A stretch of DNA of 64,000 nucleotides, from assembly GCA_937997485.1 (NCBI GenBank), contig CALKTH010000075.1:1-64000 (forward strand), given 5' to 3'. Source of the stretch: an uncultured Acidimicrobiales bacterium. GTDB lineage: Bacteria; Actinomycetota; Acidimicrobiia; Acidimicrobiales; SZUA-35. Below are positions 38,808 to 40,137 of this stretch, one piece after another (the first letter of the stretch is position 1; every line of letters begins with the position of its first letter). The position numbers and the translations under genes are program-made. Below the pieces are notes generated by a model. The model made no database searches and had not been told where the DNA came from. It worked only from the letters and a program-made list of their open reading frames with translations.

Positions 38808-39161
38808 CTAGGAGAGCAGCTCTCGGACGCGGTCCTTGGGGCGGCCGACGATGGCCTTGTCCTTGGTCATCACGACCGGCCGCTGTAGCAGCTGCTTGTG
38901 CTTCACCAGAATGGCGACGACCTGATCGATCGTCTGCACATCTTCTTCGGCGAGCTCGAGCTTCTTGAACTTCGAATCTCGTCGGACAAGCGCTGTGGGC
39001 TCATCTTCCAGCTTCGAGATGAGGTCTCGCAGCATCGCCTCGTCTGGCGGGTCCTGGATGTAGTTGACCGTGTCGAACTCGACACCCAGCTCTTCTGCAA
39101 TGCGCACGGCATTGACCGAAGAGTTTCAATGTTTGTTGTGGAAGATGGTGACGTCAGCCAT
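38808..39161 (-). CDS. ArsC/Spx-family thioredoxin-fold selenoprotein (UGA at 39126-39128 read as Sec)
   Basis: Frame from ATG 39161: MADVTIFHNKH-UGA-NSSVNAVRIAEELGVEFDTVNYIQDPPDEAMLRDLISKL...; UGA aligns with catalytic Cys of ArsC (HNPxCxxSRN); SECIS-like stem-loop directly downstream. Confidence 0.85.
39090..39128 (-). promoter_or_regulatory. Candidate bacterial SECIS element
   Basis: UGA-AA-CUCUUC-GGU-CAAUGC-[CGUGC]-GCAUUG-CA-GAAGAG: two perfect 6-bp stems, apical loop contains GU, 17 nt from UGA to loop. Confidence 0.8.
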
Positions 39162-39252
39162 CCGCCGACTCTATCCCCACGACAAAGTGCGGTAGCGACG
39201 AACAGCCGCTGACCCGATCACGTCACCGCCGCGACCCGCGACCTGTCGACGG

Positions 39253-39325: not shown

Positions 39326-39760
39326 ATGAACAAGCCCGACGTCATTGAACGGAAGATCACACTGAGCTGCACCATCGAACGTGCATGGGCGGCGCTGACC
39401 GATGCGGACCAGCTGGCACAGTGGTTTGGCGACTCGGCGAGCGTGGACTTGCGGCCGGGAGGAGCGATGCACCTCGGCTGGAGCGAGTACGAAGCGTCGG
39501 CAACGTGCCGAGTCGAAGCGGTGGAACCCCCGTCGACCTTCTCGTTCTGGTGGTCGACCGAAGCGGAAGATGGCACAGCGTTCGAAACGCTGGTGACCTT
39601 CACGCTGATTGCGAAGGGCGACACCACCATCGTCACCGTCGTCGAATCTGGCCTCGCTTCTCTGCCAGACGACCTCCACGCAGCGATGCTCGAAGACAAC
39701 TCCGAAGGCTGGGAATCAGAACTGCGGGATCTCGGGGACTTGGTGGGCGTGCCCCGATGA
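39326..39760 (+). CDS. SRPBCC/AHSA1-family protein
   Basis: ERKITLSCTIERAWAALTDADQLAQWFGDSASVDLRPGGAMHLGWSEYEA. Confidence 0.88.
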   Translation: MNKPDVIERKITLSCTIERAWAALTDADQLAQWFGDSASVDLRPGGAMHLGWSEYEASATCRVEAVEPPSTFSFWWSTEAEDGTAFETLVTFTLIAKGDTTIVTVVESGLASLPDDLHAAMLEDNSEGWESELRDLGDLVGVPR

Positions 39761-40137
39761 GTCGGCACGGGCCAGTCGCCACGTTCTGGGCACTGTCGGA
39801 TCCCCTTCGTGTGGACATTCTCGATCGAGTGGCGGGCGGGCGCAGTGTGACCGTGAGCGATCTCGCCGCCGAGCTACCGATATCCCGGCAGGCAGTCACA
39901 CGGCACCTCCGAACGCTGGAGGAAGCGGCGCTTCTCAAGGGCGAACGGTCAGGCAGGGAACGCCGCTATCAGCTCGACACCGCCGCCATGACTGAGGCAA
40001 CCGAGTGGCTGGCCTTGCGAACACGGAGTTGGGACGCGGCCCTCGAACGACTCGCAGCGTTCGTCGAGCCGACAGACCAAGTCGACGAAACCCACCCACC
40101 GGCAGAGCCCGCACGAATCGAGGTTCGGCGGAATTGA
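39757..40137 (+). CDS. ArsR-family winged-helix transcriptional regulator
   Basis: TFWALSDPLRVDILDRVAGGRSVTVSDLAAELPISRQAVTRHLRTLEEAALL; ATGA overlap with SRPBCC gene. Confidence 0.9.
   Translation: MSRHGPVATFWALSDPLRVDILDRVAGGRSVTVSDLAAELPISRQAVTRHLRTLEEAALLKGERSGRERRYQLDTAAMTEATEWLALRTRSWDAALERLAAFVEPTDQVDETHPPAEPARIEVRRN

Follow-up and report, generated by a model that had tools for sequence, protein, structure and literature searches.

Does the TGA codon that interrupts a short ArsC-like reading frame in an Acidimicrobiales genome terminate the gene, or does it encode selenocysteine (Sec), and what would the resulting protein do? The frame lies in the window, by which we mean the whole 64,000-nucleotide stretch of DNA that was analysed; this stretch belongs to contig C75 in an assembly of 4.86 Mb with 93% completeness. 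Standard ORF calling yields a 99-residue product from a GTG at 39107 (38808..39107, minus strand), in which the active-site strand is missing. The first-pass annotation held that the actual gene was hidden behind this internal start, and translation confirms the longer frame. It runs on the minus strand from ATG 39161 to TAG 38808 (38808..39161) and encodes 117 residues when the TGA at codon 12 is read as Sec. The read-through protein begins MADVTIFHNKH-U-NSSVNAV, and the TGA is its sole internal stop. Two further claims held up, namely that the UGA aligns with the catalytic Cys of ArsC proteins without a gap and that no other residue of the protein is Cys. Alignment with E. coli ArsC from residue 1 places the TGA (39126..39128, minus strand) on the catalytic Cys12, and the number of Cys outside position 12 in the read-through product is zero. 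On comparative grounds, the gene very probably encodes a Sec-containing redox enzyme of the ArsC family, a judgement that leaves its substrate aside.

The protein matches the Pfam ArsC family (PF03960) at 4e-14, with 53.1 bits against a gathering cut-off of 24 bits. Among solved structures, its AlphaFold model (pLDDT 94) best matches the ArsC proteins 3rdw, 3f0i, and 1i9d (from Yersinia, Vibrio, and E. coli), with Spx ranking lower. E. coli ArsC has one catalytic Cys12 in a three-arginine pocket and uses glutathione and glutaredoxin as thiol donors (PMC10820871). The window protein resembles ArsC of the E. coli plasmid R773 (1i9d) in its fold, its gapless N-terminus, His8, Arg60/94/107, and the single catalytic residue at position 12. 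It differs in having Sec for Cys12, in lacking Arg16, and in lying outside an ars operon, and the two proteins are about 31% identical. The arsenate-binding triad of R773 ArsC consists of R60, R94, and R107, with the same numbering as in the window protein, whose H8 likewise corresponds to an arsenate-binding residue there. This Arg triad is essentially invariant across Sec and Cys forms. Among the Sec forms, R60 and R94 are each found in 108/108, and H8 and R107 each in 107/108. The window protein carries the UxxS motif U12-N-S-S15; Ser15 is present in 107/108 Sec forms, and 107 of the 108 are free of Cys.

The HNKHUNSS active site had been regarded as atypical, for want of a Pro before U and an Arg after SxS, and the two features turned out differently. 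The missing Pro is only a local feature, since 73/108 Sec relatives have Pro at position 10. The loss of Arg is general in Sec forms, of which 15/108 have Arg after SxS as against 11/12 Cys forms. Some genomes also contain a second, divergent Sec ArsC (L153 in G008:C26 and L175 in G295:C47). Its motif, NPGUGK(S/A)RGA, retains the Arg after the SxS position.

By analogy with characterised ArsC enzymes, arsenate is a reasonably probable substrate of the window protein. The main competing view is that a Sec enzyme with the ArsC fold acts on another oxyanion, on a selenium or sulfur species, or on a thiolated protein, and we regard it as a serious but lesser possibility. The essentially invariant Arg triad argues against it, as does the fact that ArsC is the best match in both family and fold. 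Several observations speak in its favour or against arsenate. The score against the TIGR00014 equivalog (arsenate reductase, glutaredoxin) is 88 bits, below the curated cut-off of 106, and the same holds for the five relatives, Sec and Cys forms, that were scored one by one. The gene has no ars operon context. Of the possible arsenite exits, which also include ArsP, ArsJ, ArsM, and aquaglyceroporin, the search covered Acr3 and ArsB; neither exporter was found in the genome, and Acr3 is above the cut-off in only 9/61 relative genomes. Across the genome neighbourhoods, no conserved ars neighbour or partner gene was found, only scattered neighbours. The absence of the exporters, the rarity of Acr3, and the lack of ars neighbours count against a classical resistance role. 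Judged by eye, the next gene after the Sec ArsC gene resembles a CysQ phosphatase in eight loci (L068, about 377-1115 bases downstream of the gene start, and seven others), and in nine loci the gene before it resembles dephospho-CoA kinase; both would fit a substrate other than arsenate.

The window gene is the only ArsC-family gene found in the genome. Since the protein has a single catalytic residue and no other Cys, an external thiol must recycle the enzyme. An MshC-like ligase gene (433 bits, below the cut-off of 485) suggests mycothiol as this thiol. Divergent from the ArsC gene, at 39326-40137 on the plus strand, lie an SRPBCC/AHSA1-like ORF and an ORF for an ArsR-type winged-helix regulator, as judged by eye. 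They look like an AHSA1-ArsR pair and not an arsenic operon.

The family had originally been given as ArsC/Spx, and only the ArsC half of this assignment stands. A regulator of the Spx/MgsR type, in which Sec would serve as a redox switch on RNA polymerase, shares the fold superfamily with the window protein. Spx structures are among its fold matches, and it scores 57 bits against TIGR01617 (Spx/MgsR). However, this score lies under the cut-off of 75, the protein is below all Spx cut-offs, and ArsC models and structures score higher (88 bits for TIGR00014). The motif also differs from that of Spx/YffB proteins, whose function is regulatory; UxxS contains neither a CxxC nor a UxxC switch, and R107 is conserved. 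On scores, motif, and R107 taken together, the Spx reading is rejected as very improbable. Another neighbouring family, the arsenate reductase-like selenoprotein NF041106, is also a Sec ArsC-like protein, but it has UxxC with a resolving Cys where the window protein has UxxS. No match of the window protein to NF041106 was found at E up to 1.

The identity of codon 12 was followed through the relatives of the gene. In a search of named contigs, all of the 80 closest database loci have TGA at the same codon 12, and these loci come from three phyla. Their hosts are Acidimicrobiia, including Ilumatobacteraceae, Verrucomicrobiales/Akkermansiaceae, and one Pirellulaceae MAG. A cultured isolate, Ilumatobacter nonamiensis YM16-303, is among them. 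A homologue that contains a single TGA is present in 36 of 61 relative genomes, these 36 being mostly of the same family. In the Verrucomicrobiales and Pirellulaceae loci (L071, L076, L121, and others), the Sec ArsC is about 50-60% identical to that of the window. The presence of the gene in Verrucomicrobiota and in a planctomycete MAG suggests that it has moved between phyla, or that contigs of some MAGs were assigned to the wrong bin.

More distant homologues that were examined have Cys at codon 12, encoded by TGC. The exchange between U and C at this position, which had been put forward as a check on the Sec reading, was seen even inside one genus (g38), where G109 has TGA (L161) and G078 has TGC (L160); their proteins are 68% and 62% identical to the window protein, respectively. 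Cys forms are scattered among Sec forms in the tree, from which the number and direction of the U/C changes cannot be fixed because the alignment has few columns and several Cys rows sit on long branches. The form of the gene is associated with the selenium machinery of the host. A tRNA-Sec or SelD above the curated threshold is found in 36/36 genomes with UGA-ArsC vs 7/13 genomes with Cys-ArsC (p = 1.2e-4).

The truncated ORF found by standard calling is what would be expected if the gene were a pseudogene or contained a sequencing error, the UGA being a true stop and the GTG 39107 product the only one made. The comparative data refute this in practice, and its likelihood is negligible. UGA occupies one codon in more than 100 distinct homologous sequences from three phyla, the cultured isolate included, which excludes a sequencing error at 39126-39128. 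Instead of beginning beyond the UGA, the homologues retain the N-terminal strand, with either an in-frame UGA or Cys. Purifying selection is visible on the upstream side as well, where pN/pS is 0.27 for codons 2-11, as compared with 0.31 for codons 26-110. By this measure, the stretch between the start codon and the TGA evolves as coding sequence. A conserved promoter at the ATG and a SECIS element, both described below, also stand against a dead or misread gene.

Six nucleotides before the ATG lies the -10-like hexamer TAGAGT (39168..39173, minus strand). A TANNNT motif 6-8 nt before the start codon is conserved in 23/24 members of the clade to which the window gene belongs; shuffled sequences gave a mean of 0.46 and a maximum of 5 in 2000 shuffles. 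A Shine-Dalgarno-like motif is present in only 2/24 members. The conserved -10 box indicates a predicted leaderless mRNA starting at ATG 39161. The leaderless promoter is a trait of this clade, its Cys forms included, and is not common to all Sec forms. Since the promoter is common to the Cys forms as well, the leaderless start is not a selenium feature. We judge the ORF from GTG 39107 to be a mis-annotation, contradicted by the conserved upstream codons and the promoter.

A hairpin immediately downstream of the UGA was identified at 39090..39123 on the minus strand. It is composed of a six-pair apical stem and a lower stem, with a predicted energy of -15.1 kcal/mol and 17 nt from the UGA to the apical loop. 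The bacterial SECIS (bSECIS) model describes a loop of 3-9 nt with G in the first two loop positions, located 16-37 nt from the UGA, and an energy of at most -7.5 kcal/mol (PMC13188914). The window hairpin agrees with this model in every respect, and its apical loop, CGUGC (39104..39108, minus strand), has G at the second position. For the window sequence taken singly, shuffling gives only mild significance (z between -0.9 and -2.1 for different stretches); it was the comparative test that settled the question. In 116 Sec forms, which are related sequences and thus non-independent counts, the mean best hairpin is -13.0 kcal/mol vs -7.5 kcal/mol in synonymous-codon shuffles. In 24 Cys forms, the corresponding means are -10.2 and -10.4 kcal/mol, i.e., there is no difference. 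A sliding-window test confined the excess stability to the first windows after the UGA and found none in Cys forms.

Three loop types predominate in the Sec forms: 79 sequences have GGUC at a distance of 23 nt, 18 have CGUGC at 17 nt, and 7 have UGGAC/UGGAU at 19 nt. Codons 17-21 show zero synonymous variation in 19 close Sec sequences, and the mean normalised diversity is 0.63 from codon 26 on. In the TGC gene L160, the hairpin is lost. The search for a bacterial SECIS proposed at the outset thus ended with a model-matching hairpin that is specific to UGA forms.

The same genome encodes SelA (412 bits), SelB (309 bits), and a tRNA-Sec with the anticodon UCA (63.7 bits). The selA and selB genes (L001 14-3213) overlap by a few bases in an apparent operon, and the gene for tRNA-Sec is on a separate contig (C25). 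Of the four components whose presence the first-pass annotation had proposed to check, only SelD was not found above the cut-off in the 93%-complete assembly, where the single weak match, at 22 bits, falls well short of it. SelD is above the cut-off in 44/61 genomes searched, including the congener G001, and an assembly gap is therefore the likely cause of its absence here. In many relatives, selD itself has one in-frame TGA (L048 and L050-L053; G009, G017, G028, G011, and G031) and probably encodes a selenoprotein. SelD is known as a selenoprotein elsewhere. UGA is read as Trp in some bacteria, but decoding as another amino acid, by near-cognate Trp read-through or a reassigned code, is rejected as having next to no likelihood, given that homologues without the UGA have Cys (TGC) in this column, that tRNA-Sec, SelA, and SelB are present, and that the SECIS is specific to UGA forms.

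ArsC-like selenoproteins had rightly been described as a class reported before. In 2005, 14 sequences of a Sec arsenate reductase with UxxS (COG1393/TIGR00014) were reported from the Sargasso Sea, together with a SECIS prediction (PMC1088965), and 77 sequences of "ArsC 1" followed from GOS in 2008 (PMC2398784). The reductase is also listed in reviews of 2022 and 2026 (PMC9312934, PMC13188914; example MBT3519430.1). The protein of these accounts shares with the window gene the ArsC family, the UxxS motif, a SECIS just after the UGA, and marine bacterial hosts. As far as these accounts were consulted, they mention no Acidimicrobiia or Ilumatobacter hosts, HN[KRQS]HUNSSVNA site, leaderless promoter, or absence of ars exporters. 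Membership of the window gene in this known selenoprotein family is strongly supported by the sequence comparison. Literature searches found nothing relevant on selenoproteins in Acidimicrobiia or Ilumatobacter, and no functional work on a naturally occurring Sec ArsC. The present analysis adds the hosts, the within-genus Sec/Cys pair, the SECIS types, the leaderless start, and the absence of the tested arsenite exporters.

We propose the following route from gene to enzyme. A leaderless mRNA would start at AUG 39161, and SelB with Sec-tRNA(Sec), guided by the hairpin just downstream, would decode UGA 39126-39128 as selenocysteine. The product would be a single-domain ArsC enzyme with a thioredoxin fold, in which the selenol replaces Cys12 beside His8 and Arg60, Arg94, and Arg107 make up the oxyanion pocket. 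If the enzyme works like E. coli ArsC, arsenate would be attacked by the selenol. Resolving the adduct would then fall to a thiol from outside the protein, probably mycothiol acting with a partner of the glutaredoxin type.

What the enzyme does for the cell can be suggested only tentatively. Sec ArsC is widespread, is encoded alone on a leaderless mRNA in the clade of the window gene, and occurs here in a genome in which the arsenite exporters looked for were not found. It might have some redox role outside arsenic resistance, and Sec might have relaxed the need for the active-site Arg16. Since standard ORF calling leaves out the active site, surveys of arsenate reductases in Acidimicrobiia and marine Verrucomicrobiales would overlook or misinterpret this gene. 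With a cultured host and a natural Sec/Cys pair in one genus, the gene is well suited to testing what selenium contributes to arsenate reduction.
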